Notes: generated by a model from the sequence alone, not told the origin. 43,718 bases of DNA from Verrucomicrobiota bacterium (GCA_016190065.1 JACPRI010000023.1:1-43718); one strand, 5' to 3'; positions 7,750 through 43,718 are shown, counted from the stretch's first letter. Program-made: numbers and translations.

Positions 7750-9972
7750 ATGCAGGCAGTTTGCGCCTTGATCTTCTACACCACCTTCGTGATGGCGATT
7801 CACAGGGTGCCTGCATCGGCTGCTGAGCGTGCTCCGGAAAACGCCCGGCGAACGGCCAGCGTCCCTGAAATCCCATTCGCGGACATCGCTCGAAGGCATT
7901 GGGCATTCCAGCCGGTCAAGCGCGTCGAACCGCCGACGGTCAAAGACCTGCGTTGGCTGAAGACGCCCGTGGATCGCTTTATCCTGGCTTCGTTCGAAGC
8001 GAAGGGCATTCCACCGACTCCTCCGGCGAGCAAGGAAGAACTGATTCGCCGCGTCACGTTTGACCTGATCGGACTCCCTCCAACGCTCGGCGAAATCGAT
8101 GCCTTCGTGAAAGATTCGTCGTCGGACGCGTCCGCGCACCTGATCGACCGTTTGCTGGCGTCCCCGCACTATGGAGAACGCTGGGGACGCCATTGGCTGG
8201 ACGTGGCGCGATTCGCGGAGACGGACGGCTTCGAACATGACGCGGTTCGGCCACACGCCTGGCGCTACCGCGATTATGTGATTCAATCATTCAACGCGGA
8301 CAAACCCTACGATCGGTTCATCAAGGAACAACTCGCGGGCGACGAATTGTTTCCGGACGAACCCGAAGCGTTGATCGCGACCGCGTTCAACCTTCTGGGG
8401 CCGGACATGGTGGATTCTGCCGACCAGATTCAGCGCCGGCTCAATCGCCTCAACGATATGACGGACACGTCGGCCTCCGCGTTCTTGGGTTTGACGATGG
8501 GGTGCGCGCGTTGTCACGACCACAAGTTTGAGCCGATTTCCCAGAAGGATTACTACCGCTTCCAGGCGTTTTTCACGCCCGCCGCTTTCCGCGACGATTT
8601 GCCAGCACCGCGTCGCGAGGAATTGGCGGCGTACCAGTCCGTGCTGAAGCAATTCAATCAACTGACGCACAAGGAGCAGGAAGAGATTGCCGCAATCGAG
8701 GCGCCGTATCGGCGAAAGCTCTACGAACGGAAGCTGGCTAAGTTGTCGCCCGAAGCACAAGTCGCTCACAAGACTCCTCCGAGCGAGCGCACCACGGAAC
8801 AGGTCAACCAAATCCAGGAGACCGCCGCGCTGGTGGAAGTGACAGAGAAGGAAATGGTCAACGCGATGAGCAAGGAGGACCGGGCGCATCATAAGACGGC
8901 CAAGGAGGCGCTGGCAAAATTTCCCAAACCCACCCCTTTGCCGATGACGATGGCCTTGCAAAAGGCCACAGGAAATCCAGCGAAGACTTTCATTCTGGTG
9001 CGGGGCGACTACAATCGGCCGGGCGATGAAGTGCAGACGGGATTCCCATCTGTGTTGGAAGGGCAGGGGAGCGAATCTCAAATTTCAAATTTCAAATCTC
9101 AAATTGGCCATTCGGACGGAAAGCGCACCTCAGCGTCCCAGCGGGCCGCGCTGGCCGGATGGATCGCAAGTCCGGACAACCCTCTGGCGGCGCGCGTCAT
9201 GGTGAACCGCATTTGGCAGCATCATTTCGGGCGCGGCTTGGTGCCGACGCCGAGCGATTTCGGTTTGAAGGGCGAGCGTCCGTCGCATCCGGAGTTGCTT
9301 GATTGGCTGGCGACCGAATTCATCACGCAAGGCTGGAGCGTGAAGAAGATGCACCAGCTCCTGTTGCTTTCGGCGGTCTATCAGCAATCCAGCCGAGCCA
9401 CTCCGGAATCGCTCGCGCGCGACCCGGAAAACCGACTCTATTCCCGCTGGCAACGAAAGCGGCTTGAAGGCGAAGTTATTCGAGACAGCTTGCTGGCGAT
9501 TGGCGGGAAGCTGAATCGCCAAATAGGGGGGCCCGGCGTGTTCCCGACGATTCCCGAGGATGTGTTCAAGGGATCCAGAGGCTGGACCGTCAGCCCGAAC
9601 GCGGCGGAGCACAATCGCCGCAGCATTTACATCTTTGCCCGACGTAATTTGCGCTTCCCGTTTCTCGAAGTGTTCGACGCGCCCGACAGCAACTTGACTT
9701 GTCCAGAGCGCCCGCGGAGCACTTCCGCGCCGCAATCGTTAACTTTGCTCAACGCGGACGAAGTCCTGGCCGCCAGCCAAGCCACGGCTGCGCGCTTGCT
9801 AAATGAGGCCAGCTCCAATAGGGCGCGTGTCGCGCTCGCCTATCGCTTGATTCTGGGGCGGCCTCCGTCGGAGAGGGAGCAGACGCTCTCCCGCGCGTTC
9901 CTGGAGCACGCTCCGCTGAGCGAGTTGTGCCGCGGCTTGTTCAACCTGAATGCGTTTGTGTACGTGGATTGA
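7750..9972 (+). CDS. DUF1549/DUF1553 domain protein without an N-terminal PSCyt1 cytochrome domain
   Basis: HWAFQPVKRVEPPTVKDLRWLKTPVDRFILASFEAKGIPPTPPASKEELIRRVTFDLIGLPPT, GCARCHDHKFEPIS, NPLAARVMVNRIWQHHFGRGLVPTPSDFG. Confidence 0.93.
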   Translation: MQAVCALIFYTTFVMAIHRVPASAAERAPENARRTASVPEIPFADIARRHWAFQPVKRVEPPTVKDLRWLKTPVDRFILASFEAKGIPPTPPASKEELIRRVTFDLIGLPPTLGEIDAFVKDSSSDASAHLIDRLLASPHYGERWGRHWLDVARFAETDGFEHDAVRPHAWRYRDYVIQSFNADKPYDRFIKEQLAGDELFPDEPEALIATAFNLLGPDMVDSADQIQRRLNRLNDMTDTSASAFLGLTMGCARCHDHKFEPISQKDYYRFQAFFTPAAFRDDLPAPRREELAAYQSVLKQFNQLTHKEQEEIAAIEAPYRRKLYERKLAKLSPEAQVAHKTPPSERTTEQVNQIQETAALVEVTEKEMVNAMSKEDRAHHKTAKEALAKFPKPTPLPMTMALQKATGNPAKTFILVRGDYNRPGDEVQTGFPSVLEGQGSESQISNFKSQIGHSDGKRTSASQRAALAGWIASPDNPLAARVMVNRIWQHHFGRGLVPTPSDFGLKGERPSHPELLDWLATEFITQGWSVKKMHQLLLLSAVYQQSSRATPESLARDPENRLYSRWQRKRLEGEVIRDSLLAIGGKLNRQIGGPGVFPTIPEDVFKGSRGWTVSPNAAEHNRRSIYIFARRNLRFPFLEVFDAPDSNLTCPERPRSTSAPQSLTLLNADEVLAASQATAARLLNEASSNRARVALAYRLILGRPPSEREQTLSRAFLEHAPLSELCRGLFNLNAFVYVD
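9074..9105. repeat. A/T-rich TTTGAAATTT repeat inside a CDS, copy 1
   Basis: aatctcaaatttcaaatttcaaatctcaaatt; its reverse complement shares AAATTTGAAATTTGAGATT with 22761-22779. Confidence 0.8.
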
Positions 9973-10002
9973 GTGGATTGATGTGGGCGCAATCTCCATC
10001 GT

Positions 10003-10203
10003 ATGGGTAAGGTTCGTCGGGGCGATTTCATCTTCGAATGGTGGATTGGCGATCATCCACCTCGCCATATTCACGTCCCAGACAGCAACGGCGAACTACT
10101 CGGTCGTGTCGTGATTAAGGACATGACTCCTCTTGAAGATTGGAAGCCGCCGAAGAAAGTGTTAGAGATAATCCGCCAATTGATTGAAGAAAGCCGACTA
10201 TGA
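10003..10203 (+). CDS. DUF4160-like small protein
   Basis: MGKVRRGDFIFEWWIGDHPPRHIHVPDSNGELLGRVVI; PPRHIHV resembles the DUF4160 PPHVHV signature; ATGA overlap with the next gene. Confidence 0.7.
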   Translation: MGKVRRGDFIFEWWIGDHPPRHIHVPDSNGELLGRVVIKDMTPLEDWKPPKKVLEIIRQLIEESRL

Positions 10204-10493
10204 AAGTTCTCAACCCACTGAAGGCCCCCTTTGGCAAAGGTAAGTTCTCCCGCGTAAAGAACGTCACCTACCGCCAGTGGGAAGACGCTTTCGAAGTTGA
10301 GTTCGACGATGGCCTCTCCTTCCTGGAACCGCACGGGACGATACGAAAAGCCAACAAGATTGCCCCCAAGGCCGTGGTGGAGCGTGTGGCCTTGGACGAA
10401 GAACTGCGTCACGGCTTCCTTGTTCGCTACGAAAACGGACAAATAGCCGAAGTCTCTTGGTCTTTCATCCGCGAACTGCCTCCAGGGAAATGA
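10200..10493 (+). CDS. DUF2442-like small protein
   Basis: VKNVTYRQWEDAFEVEFDDGLSFLEPHGTIRKANKIAPKAVVERVALDEELRHGFLVRYENGQIAEVSW; DUF2442-like, paired with the DUF4160-like gene. Confidence 0.65.
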   Translation: MKVLNPLKAPFGKGKFSRVKNVTYRQWEDAFEVEFDDGLSFLEPHGTIRKANKIAPKAVVERVALDEELRHGFLVRYENGQIAEVSWSFIRELPPGK

Positions 10494-10605
10494 AAGGCGA
10501 TTAGGAGGAGCCAGCATGTCACTCGGCCGACATTTCCCTGACTGCCGCAGCCTTCATTTTCCTCCTGTTCTCCTTTGAAGAAGTGTGTAATGTTTCTTCT
10601 AAATC

Positions 10606-12069
10606 ATGAGCTGCCAATGCACGGGACCCAACGGGCCTGAAACCCGGCCGACTTCGCGCCGCGAATTCCTGCGCCGGAGCGGATGCGGATTCGGGATGCT
10701 GGCGCTGACTTCCCTGCTGGATGCCGAAGGTTTGCTCGCCGGCAACACGCCATCGACCAAAGTGGCGCCGGTCAATCCGCTGCTGCCCAGGCCGCCGCAT
10801 TTCCCGACCAAAGCCAAGAACGTCATTTTCCTCTTCATGTCCGGCGGGCCGAGCCACGTCGATCTGTTCGATCTGAAGCCGGACTTGATTCGGCTCGCCG
10901 GCCAGCCGATTCCCGAATCGTTCGGCACGTTCAAAACGCGGCGAGCCGTGGCCAAAAACAAACTCATGCCGCCGGTGCGCCCGTTCCGAAAGCACGGCCA
11001 ATGCGGGATGGAGGTATCGGATTTCCTCCCGCACATCGCCGGCTGCGTGGATGATATTTGCCTCTTGCGCGGCTGCTATGGCGATAGTGTCACGCATCCG
11101 GAGTCCGTCTATTTGATGAACACCGGTTCGATTCTGATGGGCCGTCCGAGTCTCGGCGCGTGGGCGACTTACGGGTTGGGCACGGAAAACCAGAACATGC
11201 CTGCGTTCGTCGTGATGCCGGACCCGAGCGGCTGGGTCAAAGGCGGGGCGCCCGCCTGGGGCAATGGTTACATGCCCGCTGTGTTTCAAGGCACAATTCT
11301 GCGCGGCGGCGAATCGCCGATTCTGCATCTCAATACTCCCCAAGGCATCAGCACGGCCCAACAGCAGGCCACGGTCGATTTCATCAATCAACTCAATCGC
11401 GAGGACCTGCGGCCCGGGGAGGAACAATCGGAATTGGCCGCGCGCATCTCGGCGTACGAACTGGCGTTTCGCATGCAGGCCCACGCGCCGGAAGTCGTCA
11501 ATGTTTCCCGCGAGAGCGAGGCGACCAAAAAACTTTACGGCCTGGACAATAAGACCACGGCTGAATTCGGGCTTCGCTGCCTGTTGGCGCGGCGGATGAT
11601 CGAGCGCGGCGTTCGGTTCGTCGAACTTTATTGCGGCGACACCAACGGCTGGGACGGCCATTCTGCCGTCGAGGACAATCACGCCAAACTGTGCGCGCAA
11701 AGTGATCTTCCCGTGGCCGGGCTGCTGAAAGATTTGAGATCGCGCGGGCTGCTGGACTCCACGGTCGTTATCTGGGGTGGGGAATTCGGCCGTATGCCCA
11801 TGAGCGAAGGATCGGATGGCCGCGATCATAATCCGCATGGTTTCTGCATGTGGCTGGCCGGTGGCGGCGTGAAAGGAGGCCAGGTTATCGGTGCGACCGA
11901 TGCCGTGGGCCTGCGCGCCGAGCACGAGAAAACTCACGTCCACGATATCCACGCGACGATTCTGCACCTCCTCGGACTCGACCACACGCGCCTGACGTTC
12001 CGCCACAATGGGCGCGACGAAAGGCTGACCGATGTCGCGGGCGATGTCATCACCAAAGCGATTGCTTGA
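10606..12069 (+). CDS. DUF1501 domain (sulfatase-fold) protein
   Basis: TSRREFLRRSGCGFGMLALTSLL, NVIFLFMSGGPSHVDLFDLKPDL, VVIWGGEFGRMPMSEGSDGRDHNPHGFCMWLAGGGVKGG. Confidence 0.93.
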   Translation: MSCQCTGPNGPETRPTSRREFLRRSGCGFGMLALTSLLDAEGLLAGNTPSTKVAPVNPLLPRPPHFPTKAKNVIFLFMSGGPSHVDLFDLKPDLIRLAGQPIPESFGTFKTRRAVAKNKLMPPVRPFRKHGQCGMEVSDFLPHIAGCVDDICLLRGCYGDSVTHPESVYLMNTGSILMGRPSLGAWATYGLGTENQNMPAFVVMPDPSGWVKGGAPAWGNGYMPAVFQGTILRGGESPILHLNTPQGISTAQQQATVDFINQLNREDLRPGEEQSELAARISAYELAFRMQAHAPEVVNVSRESEATKKLYGLDNKTTAEFGLRCLLARRMIERGVRFVELYCGDTNGWDGHSAVEDNHAKLCAQSDLPVAGLLKDLRSRGLLDSTVVIWGGEFGRMPMSEGSDGRDHNPHGFCMWLAGGGVKGGQVIGATDAVGLRAEHEKTHVHDIHATILHLLGLDHTRLTFRHNGRDERLTDVAGDVITKAIA

Positions 12070-12097
12070 TTAGCGATCAGGTCTGCTTCCCCGTAAC

Positions 12098-12221
12098 GCA
12101 GAGTTGCACTCTGCTGTATCGCCGATTTTCAATCGGCAGCGCTCTGACAGATCCCAGCGCGTTCTGGCTTGTCCAGAGCTAGCGGAATGCAATTCCGCGA
12201 TACGGCAGATTGCAAATCTGC
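12098..12221. repeat. Cluster of four perfect 17-nt hairpins (7-bp stem, 3-nt loop) in two inverted pairs
   Basis: GCAGAGT-TGC-ACTCTGC (12098-12114), GCCGATT-TTC-AATCGGC (12121-12137), GCGGAAT-GCA-ATTCCGC (12182-12198), GCAGATT-GCA-AATCTGC (12205-12221); spacers tgtatc and gatacg are near reverse complements. Confidence 0.95.
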
Positions 12222-12231
12222 GCTACTCCGA

Positions 12232-14163
12232 ATGGCCACAATTAAGCTTGAAATGCGAACTGCGCGGTCACTTGCCTGGTTGATGCTCGGCGTCGCTTCA
12301 ATGGCTGGCCTCAAAGCCAGCGTCTATTCGCCTCGCGTCCTTTCTCCACACGTAGCCGACACTTACAGTCTCAAAACTTTCGCCGAATTCCATCGCTGGC
12401 GCGATTTGAACGGCGACGCGAAAGTCTATGAAATCTTCCAATACCTGATCGATCCGCGCACGGGAATTTACCCGATGGGCGTTCCGGCATGGGAGGGCGA
12501 CGAGGAGATGTCCGAGTTCGCCGCCGTTCGCGAACCGATCAAAATGCTCAACGTTTATCCCATCGGCCATTGCGGAACGCTCGGACCGACGATGGCGGGC
12601 ATCATGCAAGGGATGGGGATCGGTCCGGCGCGGACGCTCATCCTTCCGGCATGGAATCACGTGGCGTCCGAGGTTTTTTACGACGCCCGGTGGCATTACC
12701 TGGACCTCGATGTCCGCGCGATTTTCCGGCGCGCGGATGGCTCGCTCGCCTCGATGGCGGAAGCTCAGCAGGACGCCTCGCTCTGGAATAGGCCGAACAG
12801 CCCGGATTTCTTTCCGCTCGATGCGCTGCCCACAGTGAGAGCGGTGTACCAAAAAACCGCGGTGAGGCATTATTACGGCCATCCGAGCGGCGGGCACACG
12901 ATGGATTTCGTGTTGCGCCAGGGCGAGACCTTCACTCGCTGGTGGAAGCCGCAAGGCGGCCGGTGGAACCACCATTCCTCGTACGGGGCTGAACCCTTTC
13001 CGAGAACCCTGATCCAGCAGGAGCCGCGCGGGCCGAAGTGCAAGCACGCCAGTTTCACGGTTCACGCCCACGGCAATGGCCAGTTCGTTTATCGGCCAAA
13101 TCTGACTTCCAAGTCCACGGACTTTGAAGACGGCGTTTACTCCTCTCAAAACCTTGCGCCAAGTTCGACGGGGTTGACTCTGCGGGGCAGGGGAGAGGGG
13201 CACGCCATTTTTGAGGTTCGAACACCTTATGTGATCGCCCCGCTGGTCGGGAATCTCGATGCCGCTTCGGATGACCGGGAAGCGTCGGTGGTTCGGGTCG
13301 ATGCCGACGAAGCGACCGTTTCTCTGTCGATGGACAACGGCCTCACTTGGAAAGAACTGGGTCCGGCCAATGGCACGCACGACCTGACACGCCACGTCAG
13401 CGGTACCTACGGTTATTTGCTCAAGCTGGCCTTGCGTGGCGAGCCGAATACAGCCCTCGTGCGCTCAATCGAAATGACGACGTGGGTCCAGGTGCATCCC
13501 GCTTCGTTGCCTTCGCTTCGGAAAGGAAGGAACGAAATGCGCCTGATCACTGGCGATCACCACGGACTGCAAACACGCGTGTTGGAAATCCGTCCTAGCG
13601 CGGCGCGGGCGGACGAATTCGTGAGACACCTGGCCGAGCCGCCCAAGGACTACGATCCGGCGCGGCGCACGAGCCGGGTGCGCGGAACCATGACCGCGAA
13701 GGTGCAGGCGCCTCCAGGGTCAAAGATCGCCTGGTTCTCCGTCGGGGCGAGCTTCACGACTCACCAGCGCGAAGCTGCGCTGAACACGCGCAACACGATG
13801 GCCTACGCCGCGGAAGCTTCGGAACAGTTTGAACAAATCTACCGTTCTGAAATCCCCGCTGACCAAGATCACTGGCACTTCAACGTGGATCGCGAAGTAA
13901 AGCTCCAGAAACCCGCGGGCTCGGTTCTCGTCCGATACGTCGGCGATCCCGGTCTGAACAACCTCCGCATTTACGCGCATTGTCTGGAGGATCGCGCAAA
14001 CGCCGCGACGTCTGTCACCGCAACCCATGTCTGGATCGAGAACGGATTGCGCAAGAGCAAAACCGTGACGTGCGACCCGGGCGCGGCCTACGTGATTGAA
14101 ACGGAATCCGACCCGGTCGATGAATCAATTTCTCTCGCGATCTCCAGCGTTCTCCGACGCTGA
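12232..14163 (+). CDS. Exported protein with transglutaminase-like catalytic core
   Basis: YPIGHCGTLGPTMAGIMQGMGIGPARTLILPAWNHVASEVFYDARWHYLDLDVRAIF: Cys/His/Asp in transglutaminase-like order. The ORF upstream of 12232 is translated repeat. Confidence 0.6.
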   Translation: MATIKLEMRTARSLAWLMLGVASMAGLKASVYSPRVLSPHVADTYSLKTFAEFHRWRDLNGDAKVYEIFQYLIDPRTGIYPMGVPAWEGDEEMSEFAAVREPIKMLNVYPIGHCGTLGPTMAGIMQGMGIGPARTLILPAWNHVASEVFYDARWHYLDLDVRAIFRRADGSLASMAEAQQDASLWNRPNSPDFFPLDALPTVRAVYQKTAVRHYYGHPSGGHTMDFVLRQGETFTRWWKPQGGRWNHHSSYGAEPFPRTLIQQEPRGPKCKHASFTVHAHGNGQFVYRPNLTSKSTDFEDGVYSSQNLAPSSTGLTLRGRGEGHAIFEVRTPYVIAPLVGNLDAASDDREASVVRVDADEATVSLSMDNGLTWKELGPANGTHDLTRHVSGTYGYLLKLALRGEPNTALVRSIEMTTWVQVHPASLPSLRKGRNEMRLITGDHHGLQTRVLEIRPSAARADEFVRHLAEPPKDYDPARRTSRVRGTMTAKVQAPPGSKIAWFSVGASFTTHQREAALNTRNTMAYAAEASEQFEQIYRSEIPADQDHWHFNVDREVKLQKPAGSVLVRYVGDPGLNNLRIYAHCLEDRANAATSVTATHVWIENGLRKSKTVTCDPGAAYVIETESDPVDESISLAISSVLRR

Positions 14164-37724: not shown

Positions 37725-39191
37725 ATGAATTTGCCCGCTGACTTCCGCCAATTCCTCCGCCAGCGCCAAACCCGCCGCGCCTTCCTGGGCCGCTCGTCCC
37801 AAGGGCTCGGTGCACTTGCTCTGGCGTCGCTGATCAATCCAACCATCCTGAAGCTCGCCGCCGCCACGGGCGCGGCCAAGAAAGACAAATGGGCCGGCGT
37901 CATCAATCCTTGTCATTTTCCGTCCAAGACCAAGCGCGTCATCTGGATGACCATGGCGGGCGGAGCGTCGCATTTGGAGACTTTCGATTACAAGCCGAAG
38001 CTCGCGGAGATGCACGGGAAACCGATGCCGGAGTCGTTCACGAAAGGAAGGCAAATCGCGCAACTCCAGGGCGCCAAGCTCGTTTGCTTTGGGCCGCAAC
38101 ACAAATTCAAAAAGTTCGGCGCGAGCGGCGCGGAAATTTGCGATCTGTTCGAGCACATCGGCTCCGTCTCGGATGAGATCTGTTTTGTCCGTTCCATGAC
38201 GACCGACGCGATCAATCACGACCCGGCGCACATGTTCATGAACACCGGCTCGCAGATCACGGGCCGGCCGAGCATGGGATCGTGGGTGGTGTATGGACTG
38301 GGCTCCGACGCGGAGGATTTGCCAGGGTTCGTGGTGCTCACCTCGCTGGGCAAAGGCGGCCAGAACCAGCCCATCGCGGCTCGGCAGTGGGCGTCCGGCT
38401 TTTTGCCGAGCCGATTCCAGGGCGTGCATCTACGGAGCAAGGGCGATCCGGTGCTTTATCTCAGCACGCCGCCCGGCGTGAGCCGCGACCAACAGCGAGA
38501 CGTGGTGCAAACCGTCAATGCGATTAATGCCAAATACGACGCGATCGTGGACGACCCGGAGATTGCCACTCGCATTGCCCAGTATGAAATGGCGTTTCAA
38601 ATGCAGGCCAGCGTGCCGGAGTTGATGAACATCAGCCAGGAACCGCAGCACATCCTCGATCTCTACGGCTGCAAACCGGGGGACGGTTCCTTCGCTTCCA
38701 ATTGCCTCCTGGCGCGGCGGCTCGCGGAGCGAGGCGTGCGCTTCACCCAGCTTTACCACAAAGACTGGGACCACCACGGCGGCGTGAAAGAGGGCGTTCG
38801 GCTCAAGGCCTTGGAAGTCGATCGCGCATGCATGGCCCTGATTACTGATCTCAAACACCGGGGAATGCTAAACGACACGCTTGTCGTGTGGGCGGGCGAA
38901 TTCGGGCGCACGCCGATGAGCCAGGGCGGTGATGGCCGCGATCATCACAACGCCGGCTTCAGCATTTGGTTGAGCGGCGGCGGCATCCGGGGCGGCATTG
39001 GTTACGGCGCCACGGATGAACTCGGCTACGACGCGGTGGAGAATCCAGTCAACGTCCACGACCTGCACGCGACGATGCTGCGCTTGCTGGGCATCGATCA
39101 CATGAAGCTCACGGTCAAGTTTCAGGGCCTGGACGCTCGTCTCTCCGGCACCGGCGACGATGGCCGCGTGATCGACGGGATTCTCGCTTGA
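37725..39191 (+). CDS. DUF1501 domain (sulfatase-fold) protein
   Basis: RRAFLGRSSQGLGALALASLI, RVIWMTMAGGASHLETFDYKPKLAEMHGKPMPES, VVWAGEFGRTPMSQGGDGRDHHNAGFSIWLSGGGIRGG. Confidence 0.95.
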   Translation: MNLPADFRQFLRQRQTRRAFLGRSSQGLGALALASLINPTILKLAAATGAAKKDKWAGVINPCHFPSKTKRVIWMTMAGGASHLETFDYKPKLAEMHGKPMPESFTKGRQIAQLQGAKLVCFGPQHKFKKFGASGAEICDLFEHIGSVSDEICFVRSMTTDAINHDPAHMFMNTGSQITGRPSMGSWVVYGLGSDAEDLPGFVVLTSLGKGGQNQPIAARQWASGFLPSRFQGVHLRSKGDPVLYLSTPPGVSRDQQRDVVQTVNAINAKYDAIVDDPEIATRIAQYEMAFQMQASVPELMNISQEPQHILDLYGCKPGDGSFASNCLLARRLAERGVRFTQLYHKDWDHHGGVKEGVRLKALEVDRACMALITDLKHRGMLNDTLVVWAGEFGRTPMSQGGDGRDHHNAGFSIWLSGGGIRGGIGYGATDELGYDAVENPVNVHDLHATMLRLLGIDHMKLTVKFQGLDARLSGTGDDGRVIDGILA

Positions 39192-39246
39192 GGTGAGTGT
39201 GTCGTTAACGGAGAACTCATACCAATCTGCAATGCCCGCGATGGAT

Positions 39247-39354
39247 CCTCCCTCTCCCAGCGGGAGAGGGCCGGGGTGAGGAAGAGTCGCAGGCATCTCT
39301 ATTCGCACCCGACTCACTCGACGTTTTCACCCTCACCTTCGAGGGAGAGGGAAT
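39247..39354. repeat. REP-like composite repeat, copy 2
   Basis: cctccctctcccagcgggagagggccggggtgagg ... ttttcaccctcaccttcgagggagagggaat; matches the layout of 7516-7633. Confidence 0.8.
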
Positions 39355-39378
39355 ATGAACAGCCCGCACAAAGCTCGC

Positions 39379-40785
39379 ATGACGCTGCCAAAACTTGTCC
39401 TGCCTTTGCTCTTGCTGACCATCACGCTGAGCGCAGCCGAGCCGCGTCCACCCAACTTCATTTTCATTCTGATCGATGACATGGGTTGGACGGACTTGGG
39501 TTGTTTCGGAAGCACGTTTTACAAAACACCGAACATCGACAAACTGGCCGCGTCGGGCATGAAATTCACCAACGCCTACGCCGCCTGCCCCGTGTGCTCG
39601 CCCACGCGCGCCAGCATCATGACCGGCAAATATCCGGCGCGCTTGCATTTGACCGACTGGCTCCCAGGCCGGCGCGATATGTCTTCGCAAAAACTCTTGC
39701 GCCCGCAAATTCGCCAGGCGCTGCCTCTGGAGGAAGTGGCCCTGGCGGAGGCTCTGAAATCCAAAGGCTACGTCACCGCGCACGTCGGCAAGTGGCATCT
39801 CGGCGGAAAGGGCTTTGAGCCGCAGAAGCAAGGATTCGATCTCAACGTCGCTGGCGATCATACCGGGACGCCGCTGAGTTACTTTCACCCCTTCCAACGC
39901 GACGGCCGCTTCATGCCGGGACTGGAACGCGGCGAGGCAGGCGAATACCTGACCGACCGCCTGACAACGGAAGCAGAAAAGTTCATCGAACAAAATAGAG
40001 ACAAGCCGTTCTTTCTTTATCTCGCGCATTACGCGGTTCACATCCCGCTTCGAGCGAAGCAGGAACTCGTGGCCAAGTTTCAGCAAAGCCAGCCGAGCCC
40101 ATCTCACACGAACGCCATCTACGCGGCTATGATCGCGAGCGTGGATGAAAGCGTCGGCCGTTTAGTGCGGAAACTGGAGGAACTGAAACTCACGGACAAC
40201 ACCGTGATTATTTTCACGACCGACAACGGCGGTTTGTCTGTCAAAGAAGGTCCAAACACACCGGCGACTTCCAACGCTCCGCTTCGCGCAGGCAAAGGGT
40301 ATCTTTACGAAGGCGGCATCCGCGTGCCGTTGATCGTTCGCTGGCCAGGGGCCACCCACGCGGGAGGCGTTTGCCGCACGCCGGTCAGCAGCGTGGATTA
40401 TTATCCCACGATCCTTGAGATCGCGCGGGTGGAACCTGCCCAAGGACAAATCCTCGATGGCGCGAGTCTGGTTCCGTTGCTCAAACAGTCTGGTGAGATC
40501 AAGCGCGGTGCGCTCTTCTGGCATTACCCGCATTACAGCAATCAAGGCGGCAAGCCGGGCGGCGCGATTCGCGAGGGCGACTTTAAGCTGGTCGAGTTTT
40601 ACGAAGACGGCCGGCGTGAACTCTACAATCTGGTTGCAGATATTGGAGAACAGAGCGATCTGGCCAGGCAGTCGCCGGAAAAGGCTGCCGCATTGCACAA
40701 AAAACTTTCCGACTGGCGCAGGCAGGTGAATGCGCAAATGATGACATCGAACCCGGACTACAAGCCTGCCGCCGCCCCTCCTTGA
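39379..40785 (+). CDS. Secreted type I (formylglycine) sulfatase
   Basis: PNFIFILIDDMGWTDLGCFGSTFYKTPNIDKLAASGMKFTNAYAACPVCSPTRASIMTGKYPAR (C-S-P-T-R), HVGKWHLG, FTTDNGG. The ORF start at 39355 abuts the repeat. Confidence 0.93.
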   Translation: MTLPKLVLPLLLLTITLSAAEPRPPNFIFILIDDMGWTDLGCFGSTFYKTPNIDKLAASGMKFTNAYAACPVCSPTRASIMTGKYPARLHLTDWLPGRRDMSSQKLLRPQIRQALPLEEVALAEALKSKGYVTAHVGKWHLGGKGFEPQKQGFDLNVAGDHTGTPLSYFHPFQRDGRFMPGLERGEAGEYLTDRLTTEAEKFIEQNRDKPFFLYLAHYAVHIPLRAKQELVAKFQQSQPSPSHTNAIYAAMIASVDESVGRLVRKLEELKLTDNTVIIFTTDNGGLSVKEGPNTPATSNAPLRAGKGYLYEGGIRVPLIVRWPGATHAGGVCRTPVSSVDYYPTILEIARVEPAQGQILDGASLVPLLKQSGEIKRGALFWHYPHYSNQGGKPGGAIREGDFKLVEFYEDGRRELYNLVADIGEQSDLARQSPEKAAALHKKLSDWRRQVNAQMMTSNPDYKPAAAPP

Positions 40786-40941
40786 TGGGAGCTATCAACC
40801 TGAAAAGCGGAGACGGGGAGCTTCAACTTTGGTTACGACCGTCTTGTTGCGCCAATTCACTTCCATCGGATGCACTCGGCGGCGGTTCGTCTCCAGCGAT
40901 TTGTCGATCTTTCTGGGTCGATCCCAAGATGAACGCGCACG

Positions 40942-41295
40942 TCAGATGTCAGTCTGCCTCGCCCGATAACAGCTTTCACACAGATTCTCTGTGCTCTGAT
41001 CTGCGCCTCGATGCACCGTCACATGGAAGGTTGCTGAACGGTGATGGCATCGGTCGCAAAGCATAGACTGAGTGCCGGACATTGTCTGTCGGATAATCTC
41101 ATCAGTTCGCTCAAGATCGACTTGAGCTACCCACAAGTGGACGCCTCCCTCGGAAGTGTCCGTCCGCCAACCGGGAGGAGGATCGTCCGCTGGCCGGATC
41201 GTGGACTCGATGCCTGACAATGCCAGAGCCCTTTGCAGTCGCTCAGCATCGGCTCGAATTCGAAACCACAAAATGGGCGCGATCGGAGGACTCAT
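40942..41295 (-). CDS. DUF2007-like domain plus McsA-type zinc-ribbon protein
   Basis: ILWFRIRADAERLQRALALSGIESTIRPAD..GVHLWVAQVDLERTDEII, then MLCDRCHHRSATFHVTVHRGADQSTENLCESCYRAR (CxxC...CxxC). Confidence 0.65.
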   Translation of the reverse strand: MSPPIAPILWFRIRADAERLQRALALSGIESTIRPADDPPPGWRTDTSEGGVHLWVAQVDLERTDEIIRQTMSGTQSMLCDRCHHRSATFHVTVHRGADQSTENLCESCYRARQTDI

Positions 41296-41325
41296 GTTGT
41301 CCGTGAAGCAAACACAAAGACAATG

Positions 41326-41402
41326 GCCGAACGAGAATTTACCGAATGCCAGCGTCGCGTGACTTGAAACAGACGCGGCTTGTCGTCATTCGGTCCGGCG
41401 GC
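41326..41402 (-). repeat. Weak attC-like palindrome (site D)
   Basis: GCCGAAC (41326-41332); stem ACCGAATG (41341-41348)/CATTCGGT (41387-41394), inner CGCGT/ACGCG. Lies between two minus-strand genes. Confidence 0.4.
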
Positions 41403-41419
41403 TCTAGCCTTCATGACCG

Positions 41420-41797
41420 TCAGAGCAGTCCATCCGCGATCTGCCTCAAACCTACACCAAACCAGACTACCAGAAACAATCCCCACAGCACAGACAGCAG
41501 AATCTGCCAGGGCCGCTTTTGGGTCCTGAGCAGCAGAATAAGCAGCGCCGCTCCCAGCAGCGTCAACCCGGCAGCCAGCGCCCAACTGAACGAGCGAAGC
41601 CCGGCATTTGGAAAATCGACGAGTCGGACGATAGCCACACCCCACGGACCGAAATAATTGGCCAACGCAGCCGCGATATGCTGGAGCGGCGTTATGGGGG
41701 CGTCATCGGGCGCCGCCCTCAAGTGGAGGACCACAAACGGCAAGCTGACCACCAGCGCAATGATGCCGAACACGGCAAGAACTTTTCTGGTGCTCAT
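41420..41797 (-). CDS. Small membrane protein
   Basis: MSTRKVLAVFGIIALVVSLPFVVLHLRAAPDD...FSWALAAGLTLLGAALLILLLRTQKRPWQILLSVLWGLFLVVWFGVGL: several hydrophobic helices. Confidence 0.65.
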   Translation of the reverse strand: MSTRKVLAVFGIIALVVSLPFVVLHLRAAPDDAPITPLQHIAAALANYFGPWGVAIVRLVDFPNAGLRSFSWALAAGLTLLGAALLILLLRTQKRPWQILLSVLWGLFLVVWFGVGLRQIADGLL

Positions 41798-41930
41798 GAT
41801 GCTTCCGCTTTCTGTAAGGCAACAGAATGGACTCGATAAAGTAATCACCGACTCCAGCCTCACACGATTCATAGAACCGACGCCCGGCCTCCATGTCCCC
41901 GGCGGCGTCCTCCAGAATCACGACCGTCAT
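41703..41930 (-). pseudogene. RelE/ParE-family toxin, N-terminal fragment
   Basis: MTVVILEDAAGDMEAGRRFYESCEAGVGDYFIESI matches a ParE/RelE N-terminus; downstream sequence diverges and runs into the next gene. Confidence 0.65.
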
Positions 41931-42145
41931 GATTCTGAGCCTCGCAGCCGAGCCCTGAGCTGATCTAAGGTCAGAAACTTGGCCTCGCCTGTTTGCGCTC
42001 GTGCCTTCCGGTCAGCCAGAACGTCTCGATGCCACTCCGGAGAGGCTATCTCGCGTGCGTCGCGACACAGAGCGTCCCAAAGTTGCTCCATCACTTGGAG
42101 TCGTTCCGCGATAGACATTTTCTCGATTTGGGCATTCTCAAGCAC
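41927..42145 (-). CDS. Addiction-module antitoxin (short helical antitoxin)
   Basis: EKMSIAERLQVMEQLWDALCRDAREIASPEWHRDVLADRKARAQTGEAKFLTLDQLRARLR; ATGA overlap with the toxin fragment. Confidence 0.78.
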   Translation of the reverse strand: MLENAQIEKMSIAERLQVMEQLWDALCRDAREIASPEWHRDVLADRKARAQTGEAKFLTLDQLRARLRGSES

Positions 42146-42196
42146 GTGAGAACCTTAATGCCGCGTGGTGGCTAGGGCAAGCGCAGCGATATTGGT

Positions 42197-42321
42197 AGCG
42201 AACGTAAAGGGTGAGCGACCGCCGCTGGAGATGGGCTCACGCAAGCACCGTAACCGTCCGAATCCTCCGGGCAACTCCGAAACGGAAGCGCCCAGCGGCG
42301 GTTCGTCTCCACCCGTTGGGC
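42197..42321 (-). repeat. attC-like recombination site B (putative)
   Basis: Arms GGGTGAGCGACCGCCGCTGG (42209-42228) and CCAGCGGCGGTTCGTCTCCACCC (42292-42314) pair with 3 bulged bases; cores AGCGAAC (42197-42203) and GTTGGGC (42315-42321); abuts the toxin stop codon at 42322. Confidence 0.65.
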
Positions 42322-42615
42322 CTATTCTCGGTCACGTCCGTACTGAGGATGGCGACGCTGGTGCTTAACCACAGTAATCCTAACCAACTCGGCGTCCACT
42401 CGTCGAAAGTAGATGATGTAGGGGAATCGCCTCATCAGGCATCTGCGGATATCGCGCGTGACGACCATCCATCTCTCTGGGGCTGCCGCCAACGCCAAAA
42501 CTTGTCTCTCGAACTCATCGATGAATGCCGCTCCCAAACCGGGAGAACGCTCGTTGTAATAGTCACGAATCTCCGCGAGCTCGGCTTCGACGGCGGGATG
42601 GTACTCCACCCTCAT
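42322..42615 (-). CDS. RelE/ParE-family toxin
   Basis: MRVEYHPAVEAELAEIRDYYNERSPGLGAAFIDEFERQVLALAAAPERWMVVTRDIRRCLMRRFPYIIYFRRVDAELVRITVVKHQRRHPQYGRDRE: full-length ParE/RelE. Confidence 0.9.
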   Translation of the reverse strand: MRVEYHPAVEAELAEIRDYYNERSPGLGAAFIDEFERQVLALAAAPERWMVVTRDIRRCLMRRFPYIIYFRRVDAELVRITVVKHQRRHPQYGRDRE

Positions 42616-42836
42616 GGGCGAAGTCTCGCCATCATCTCCTCATGCGCCAATGGCCGAATCTCGCCGCTCTCCAACTGCCGATCACGCTCGATGGCCAGGG
42701 CTACAGCCTCGCCATCATCCGTCACCGCTGGAATCTCAAACGGGTCCACCAAACTCTCCCACAATGACTCGGCCAACAACGCTCGCTCTTGTGGCGGCAG
42801 GCGCAACGCCGCCGCCGCTATTTGGTCGATACTCAT
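42612..42836 (-). CDS. Addiction-module antitoxin
   Basis: MSIDQIAAAALRLPPQERALLAESLWESLVDPFEIPAVTDDGEAVALAIERDRQLESGEIRPLAHEEMMARLRP; ATGA overlap with the toxin. Confidence 0.87.
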   Translation of the reverse strand: MSIDQIAAAALRLPPQERALLAESLWESLVDPFEIPAVTDDGEAVALAIERDRQLESGEIRPLAHEEMMARLRP

Positions 42837-42893
42837 GAGCGGATTATAGGCCGGGAACCTTGCGAAGGAAAGCACGGGCTTTTGGCCCTTTTG

Positions 42894-43014
42894 GCCCAAC
42901 GACACCGACAGCCGCCCGGCGGCAAACGCCGGCAGACAATCCTGCGTTTGACAACCCGAACCCACGACCTCGCGCGGACGCTGGCGGCTGTTCGGTGGAG
43001 CGACTGGTTATAGC
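42894..43014 (-). repeat. attC-like recombination site C (putative)
   Basis: Arms CACCGACAGCCGCC (42903-42916) and GGCGGCTGTTCGGTG (42983-42997) pair with one bulged A; cores GCCCAAC (42894-42900, fits RYYYAAC) and GTTATAGC (43007-43014). Confidence 0.65.
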
Positions 43015-43057
43015 ACCTTCCGAAGGCTCGACTCGCCTGTCTCCTGCAAGTTCCGAC

Positions 43058-43124
43058 CTCTGTGTTCTCTGTGCTCTCTGTGGCAAAAAAACTCAGCCAC
43101 AGAGAACGCAAAGAGCGCAGAGAA
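43058..43124. repeat. 'CACAGAGAACACAGAG'-type inverted repeat
   Basis: Arms ctctgtgttctctgtgctctctgtggc (43058-43084) and gccacagagaacgcaaagagcgcagagaa (43096-43124). Confidence 0.85.
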
Positions 43125-43212
43125 AACTCGGTCACGGTCCGCTCAGCGTCGCGGACAATGATCGATTGTCTTGGAGTCATCGGCGACTCCTCAAAACAGA
43201 ACGAACTTCTGT

Positions 43213-43328
43213 GGTATAACGATACGGGTGAGCCATGACGAGGAGCGCGCCAGTGGCGTTCGACTGGAACAGCAGCGTCATCGCACTCCTCGTCATTGGC
43301 TCGACCCGGTTCGGCATCACGTTATTTG
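43213..43328 (-). repeat. attC-like recombination site E (putative)
   Basis: Arms CGGGTGAGCCATGACGAGGAG (43225-43245) and CTCCTCGTCATTGGCTCGACCCG (43286-43308) pair over 21 bp with two bulged bases; cores GGTATAAC (43213-43220) and GTTATTTG (43321-43328). Confidence 0.65.
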
Positions 43329-43718
43329 GTCAAAAAGGCACGGATCTCACGAAGGACTTCATCCTCTCTATCGATGAAGGGGGTGTGGCTCGCATTCGTG
43401 AGCACCACCACTCGAGCGCTCGGAATCTCTCTGCGGAAATGTTCGATTTCCTGCTCGTGATATTTCCGTTGCGCTTTGAGAAACTCCTGCGCGTCTCTTC
43501 GTTGCGGCTCGGACAACGTTTCAGCCCGGTCTCGGGCTTCCTTGTAACCGACGGCAAAAAACGCAAGCGCTGGCGCTTCAATTTTGCCGTACTCGGCCCT
43601 GGCCGAATAAGTGGCTTCCAACATCGAGTATATTGCTGGACCCCTCTTCTCCCCGAATAATCGGCTTGTCCATCGGCGCGCGCCGTCCAGTGATTCGCTT
43701 TCCTCTTTGGTGGGGAAA
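43322..43718 (-). CDS. Alpha/beta hydrolase, C-terminal part (runs off right edge)
   Basis: Minus-frame reading FPTKEESESLDGARRWTSRLFGEKRGPAIYSMLEATYSARAEYGKIEAPALAFFAVG...REIPSARVVVLTNASHTPFIDREDEVLREIRAFLTK; open to the window edge, with catalytic-His context NASHTPFI. Confidence 0.7.
   Translation of the reverse strand, partial: FPTKEESESLDGARRWTSRLFGEKRGPAIYSMLEATYSARAEYGKIEAPALAFFAVGYKEARDRAETLSEPQRRDAQEFLKAQRKYHEQEIEHFRREIPSARVVVLTNASHTPFIDREDEVLREIRAFLTK

Follow-up and report, generated by a model that had tools for sequence, protein, structure and literature searches.

What are the long, imperfect palindromes that separate the short genes at the right end of this contig? The window, by which we mean the entire contig C223 (43,718 nt), belongs to a fragmentary Verrucomicrobiota MAG (5.56 Mb, 472 contigs, 67.8% complete). 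The initial annotation read its right end as a series of integron cassettes with attC sites and without a visible integrase. Our analysis indicates that the final 2.8 kb of the window very probably forms the distal portion of a cassette array of a chromosomal integron, which on the available sequence counts as a CALIN. The reading as an integron array or CALIN is supported by covariance-model hits, by tandem sites elsewhere in the genome and by placement of the sites at gene 3' ends.

Structure of the palindromes

A pattern scanner for RYYYAAC-like and GTTRRRY-like cores flanking a bulged stem returned only three sites in the whole window, B, C and E (scores of 16 to 24.5). The best score in 60 dinucleotide shuffles of the window was 15, and none reached 16. 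B was located exactly as originally described; C and E were found again, with ends that had to be redrawn, as did those of the weaker site D (Table 1). At 102–125 bp and with AAC and GTT cores, B, C and E fall within the 57–141 bp range of attC sites. Some boxes are off consensus at one or two positions; R' of B and R'' of C depart from its strict form.

The one to three bulges claimed for each palindrome were counted as three in B, one in C and two in E, all on the arm adjoining the upstream gene; extrahelical bases of known attC sites lie on this same gene-proximal arm. The stem of C as scanned has one bulge, and a second is present in full-length relatives of C. The extrahelical bases of E and of these relatives are T and G on the bottom strand, 5–6 nt apart, in agreement with the T-N6-G rule for the attC bottom strand (PMC3053210). 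DNA copies of C, 81–85% identical, occur on contigs C465 and C384.

As first noted, the stop codon of the ParE-family toxin gene (42322–42324) directly abuts the GCCCAAC core of B. The core of E was said to overlap the hydrolase stop codon, but an inner core (GCCGAAC) fits the covariance model better, which puts the stop 6 nt ahead of the R'' box. Single-strand folding, a check that had been suggested for the bottom strands, was stronger for E (z from -4.3 to -5.1) and weak for B and C (about -1.2 to -1.7). Predicted folding energy alone supports E, not B and C, and is not decisive. A general bulged-hairpin scan was also tried, but its criteria were much too loose to pick out B, C and E.

Covariance models

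Because the scanner was written after B, C and E had been seen, we treat the covariance model as the independent test. Models were built on sites from other contigs (C465, C384, C82, C214 and C358), with the window left out. MAFFT misaligned the attC sites, and a small hand-trimmed seed was used instead. The first model, R1 (five seed sequences), recovered 17 sites on other contigs and E alone in the window; therefore, it was widened to a second model, R2, trained on those 17 non-window sites. Within the R2 stem 95.4% of cells are paired and double changes are found in 16 of 22 pairs. The alignment holds 75 double-change cells, compared with 27 in shuffles, and slid versions are 27–51% paired; it was fitted to the structure, and so is biased towards it, and the controls are still far exceeded. 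Structure is more conserved than sequence in these non-window sites, as is typical of attC.

Searched with R2, the window yields E (61 bits, E-value 5.9e-19), C (50.6 bits, 2.7e-15) and B (49.1 bits, 9e-15), and nothing else in the 43.7 kb is better than an E-value of 1.8; all of these E-values are rough, from a short calibration. The initial annotation had called for such a search and would have yielded to a lack of attC covariance hits; all three sites were recovered, at E-values of about 1e-14 to 1e-19. An Rfam search of the window gave zero matches. By every sequence test used, B, C and E are predicted attC sites. We tie them to the textbook attC of class 1 and Vibrio integrons because they follow the core and extrahelical-base rules and because hits of the model lie beside intI in other phyla.

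Cassettes and the distal border

The ORF table bears out the description of the credible genes from 40.9 kb rightward as short and on the minus strand.

Table 1. Features of the window (contig C223) and of the integrase and attI regions on other contigs of the same genome.
Feature	Position	Strand	Basis or remarks
Window, entire contig C223	1-43718		no sequence beyond 43718
Flanking chromosomal genes, non-cassette (DUF1501 protein, sulfatase-like)	37725..40785	+	ORFs
Half attC relic A	40878..40909	-	L'' arm GATCGACAAATCGCTGGAGACGAACCGCCGCC; 3' half absent
Last cassette gene, zinc-binding-motif protein (DUF7685)	40942..41295	-	PF24734 28.4 bits, just over cut-off
attC D, degraded	41326..41409	-	R' GTTCGGC intact, R'' decayed to GGCTAGA
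Small membrane-protein-like gene, no family	41420..41797	-	ORF; no Pfam hit
ParE-like toxin gene, truncated 5' fragment	41822..41930	-	low end approximate
Second antitoxin-like gene (Unstab_antitox)	41927..42145	-	PF09720 52.1 bits
attC B	42197..42321	-	R'' GCCCAAC, R' GTTCGCT; three extrahelical bases on L'' arm
ParE-family toxin gene of TA cassette	42322..42615	-	PF05016 44.2 bits, over cut-off
Antitoxin-like gene of TA cassette (Unstab_antitox / TIGR02574 family)	42612..42836	-	PF09720 27.8 bits, over cut-off
attC C	42894..43013	-	R'' CTATAAC, R' GTTGGGC
Cassette without convincing ORF	42900..43219	-	holds CACAGAG-type inverted repeat
attC E	43214..43315	-	R'' GCCGAAC (43309-43315), R' GTTATAC (43214-43220); two extrahelical bases on L'' arm
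Hydrolase-like gene, 3' part; first visible cassette gene	43322..43717	-	ORF, open at contig end
Split integron integrase gene	L035 (C142) 8664-13380; insert 9135-12537		RIT-like element
Recombinase ORFs of the C142 insert	9247-10242, 10223-11326, 11131-12417		
attI-region copies	C142 end; C358 6890-7004; C336 6850-7213; C372 965-1217; C110 18491-18610		

The match of the hydrolase-like product to Abhydrolase_6 is weak and under the Pfam cut-off, and the antitoxin of the first TA cassette scores 25.9 bits with TIGR02574, below the cut-off of 31.9. The membrane character of the small protein encoded between D and the ParE-like fragment was judged by eye. Pieces of the CACAGAG-type inverted repeat (about 43059–43125) recur on contigs C216 and C313 and in relatives.

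The ParE-like fragment has no Pfam hit of its own and no attC site after it, and by eye a 99-aa ORF in locus L195 can be aligned to it over about 36 codons. The region of this second TA pair is 68% identical in a relative (G005, contig C265), where it is flanked by two attC sites and the toxin ORF is 99 aa long. The 3' part of the second toxin gene in the window, together with its own attC site, appears to have been lost.

Two further sites are eroded. D was aligned by R2 with filters off (11.2 bits, E-value 0.013, 41313–41409) and by eye looks like an attC site of C358. The half site A, overlooked by the initial annotation, matches by eye the L'' arm of an attC site on C465 and gave no covariance hit above noise with R2, filters off. 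It adjoins the chromosomal genes for the sulfatase-like protein (named by eye alone) and the DUF1501 protein (PF07394, E-value 1.1e-153), and in our reading it marks where the array ends distally. The three strong sites lie within 1.1 kb, with D and A in addition, after short genes of the same orientation (one cassette lacks a convincing ORF); the definition of an array or CALIN requires two or more such sites with under 4 kb between them.

Sites across the genome and in relatives

Searched with R2, the genome yielded at least 31 sites. They are distributed over nine contigs, and no contig has them on both strands; the count is a lower bound, from the best 150 candidates scored. Similar palindromes had been predicted between other genes, and tandem sites do occur among short genes on other contigs. 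Nor are the copies scattered without regard to gene 3' ends: an ORF of at least 70 aa ends between 120 nt upstream of the site and 25 nt inside it for 25 of the 31, whereas the same holds for 9/31 on the mirror strand and for 39% of random positions. Most cassette proteins lack a Pfam family, and one is HEPN-like. The cassette gene for this HEPN (RiboL-PSP) domain protein is near attI on contig C358 of the same genome (L032, 5894–6586).

We also searched 80 public loci that encode relatives of the integrase on contig C142 of this genome (see below). R2 gave 115 hits, about 112 of which, by our reading of the table, are on the minus strand upstream of intI; the remaining three, on the plus strand, overlap minus-strand hits. 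This canonical layout, with attC upstream of intI and on the opposite strand, is also found in gammaproteobacterial and acidobacterial loci. We consider the R2 model validated because its hits in these loci follow the canonical integron layout. The initial annotation placed attI and intI to the right of the window: the polarity of the cassettes matches the layout in relatives, and direct proof of linkage is barred by the contig end at 43718.

Among 58 genomes (that of the window and 57 relatives, most from the same order), an integron integrase over the cut-off is encoded in 21 and attC sites at an E-value of 1e-4 or better are present in 44. By table count, 20 of the 21 genomes that have intI carry these sites, as do 24 of the 37 that lack it. 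In one relative of the same order (G012, 98% complete), which lacks an integron integrase above the cut-off, the attC model has 43 hits across many contigs. Shown by the sequences are attC-type structure and covariation of the family, the polarity of the sites, the cassette-like layout of the genes, copies across the genome and, in relatives, canonical association of the same kind of site with intI.

A split integrase gene and copies of attI

No intI and no attI were found on the window contig, which ends 400 bp to the right of E, and its right end overlapped no other contig of the genome in a DNA search. TIGR02249 has a single strong match in the genome, on C142, where it falls into two pieces (160.5 and 207.6 bits, each below the cut-off of 265). 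This gene, the only detectable near-full-length intI, is split, and the 68% complete MAG yielded no intact intI of the kind that a complete functional integron has. Most named relatives of the C142 integrase come from Verrucomicrobiota, among them several from Limisphaerales or "subdivision 3"; the order of the host is a presumptive one, read from these names.

The insert in C142 is 3,403 bp long, encodes three tyrosine recombinases, and has 28-bp inverted repeats near its ends (TTATGCAAAGGTGGTAGTTATGCAAAGG near both) and CGAC on both sides. RIT elements are around 3,500 bp, with a recombinase trio and a 28-9 bp inverted repeat (PMC3414803), and the insert resembles them in size, gene number, inverted repeat and the adjacent, overlapping arrangement of its recombinase genes. 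The three proteins have general XerC/XerD-type recombinase matches only, and no RIT-specific model was among the NCBIfam matches. When the flanks are joined by script they give an uninterrupted frame of 437 residues, with GGKGDKDR at the join. Whereas RIT examples in PMC3414803 sat in a transposase gene and a radC gene, this RIT-like one sits in intI, and a limited search of the open-access literature found no report of a RIT inside intI.

The orthologous intI of a congener (G001, JACQWK01) is 88% identical over the best segment, has an attC array directly upstream and has no such insert. The reading frame of this G001 gene (L088, contig C410, 6267–7669) also looks interrupted; a second intI of G001 (C621) is open. 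Conservation between C142 and G001 ends at ...ACACTG/TT (the slash marks the crossover), the expected attI crossover. Consistent with an attI next to intI and joined to a cassette at G/TT, the C142/C358 and C372 junctions read ...ATTAACACTG/TT.... C358 shares the last 115 bp of C142 at its own end (100% identity) and runs on into cassettes. Contigs C142 and C336 stop at the crossover or no more than a few bases from it, and on C358 and C372 attI abuts attC arrays. Stubs of intI lie beside attI on C336 (59 codons) and C372 (21 codons), with a weaker remnant on C110.

Origin and state of the array

Two descriptions fit the right end of the window: a CALIN, or the distal end of an array that continues into unassembled proximal sequence. 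Each attC hairpin would be the tail of a cassette whose bottom strand, folded, was once inserted by an integron integrase into an attI or attC site lying further right than the cassettes in the window. The cargo would include a TA pair, a second and decayed TA pair, an ORF-less cassette and small proteins with no annotated function. Ageing of the array would account for the erosion of D and A, the truncated toxin gene and the missing attC site. IntI most likely built the array, which may be linked to the platform on C142 and C358 and may now be frozen; the latter hinges on there being no intact integrase, and a 68% complete MAG cannot establish such an absence.

Could the palindromes be ordinary REP/BIME-like or terminator repeats instead? 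They are GC-rich, imperfect, intergenic and multicopy, and other intergenic inverted repeats, of the CACAGAG type, occur in the same genome. However, their bulges are confined to one arm, their stems covary, they have attC-type cores and share the G/TT end with the attI junctions, and model hits in other genomes are not scattered but sit upstream of integron integrases in a single orientation. Repeats of this kind are therefore scarcely credible as an explanation, and we rejected them. It is quite improbable that the cassettes were never in a long array and that IntI placed one or a few at a time at attG-like chromosomal sites (attG insertion is mentioned in PMC12444791), leaving small scattered clusters. 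Single attC sites on C214, C65 and C378, two of them beside chromosomal-looking genes of 381 and 401 aa, would suit such insertion, as would the 43 hits in the 98% complete genome of G012, with no integron integrase over the cut-off. The window, in contrast, looks like the end of an array: its three strong sites and two remnants share one orientation and continue to the contig edge, and other array contigs behave in the same way.

A narrower form of the array reading makes the window the distal end of the array of C142 and C358, one integron split by the assembler. The orientation is compatible, several array contigs end inside arrays, and C142 and C358 share their identical 115-bp end. We nevertheless regard this form as unlikely. 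Distal array borders are also found at the ends of C465 and C384, which means that the genome has at least two arrays; C336, with the same end except for the last 5 bases, is an equally good partner for C358; and C223 is linked by sequence to none of these contigs. Tentatively, the genome may hold a retired, multi-platform integron, in which duplicated attI sites with intI stubs fed separate arrays, the last full-length intI was lost to the RIT-like element, and dozens of attC cassettes are frozen and decaying, those at the distal end of the window being an example.

The array itself, as read here, resembles known systems. CALINs as defined by IntegronFinder (PMC9024848) are clusters of attC sites that lack an integron integrase; the array agrees with them in the number of its attC sites and in the single orientation of its short genes, and no integrase was found on its contig. 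The window stops at the contig edge, so that the absence of a nearby intI is unproven, and two of its five sites are eroded; CALINs are over-counted in draft assemblies (PMC9024848). With the sedentary chromosomal arrays of Vibrio and Xanthomonas it shares TA cassettes, a majority of unknown genes, a cassette that has no ORF and a single orientation; it differs from them in its host, a member of the Verrucomicrobiota, in having several types of attC and in the spread of the sites over many contigs. Inactivated intI is common in Xanthomonas (PMC12444791, PMC8618304). Integrons have been recorded in Verrucomicrobiota (listed as a phylum in PMC8618304); in IMCC26134 (CP011265.1, locus L104), IntI is 46% identical over the best segment to that of C142 and attC arrays lie directly upstream, whereas in the genome studied here a RIT-like element breaks up the only near-full-length intI that was detectable.

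Integrons, CALINs and inactivated intI genes are already known (the latter two well known, PMC12444791), as are integrons in Verrucomicrobiota; the unusual features are the RIT-split intI and the duplicated attI. The window adds a well-supported cassette array for an under-described order of Verrucomicrobiota. C142 is a candidate for natural loss of intI by intragenic RIT insertion, with attI duplicated, and the case bears on how arrays persist and decay once the integrase is gone.

In two species, the stretch from intI to the attI crossover also holds conserved inverted motifs of the CTGATAAACCGCAG...CTGCGGTTTATCAGG type (L035, 13340–13560; L088, 6150–6370). These are possibly IntI-binding or regulatory sites.
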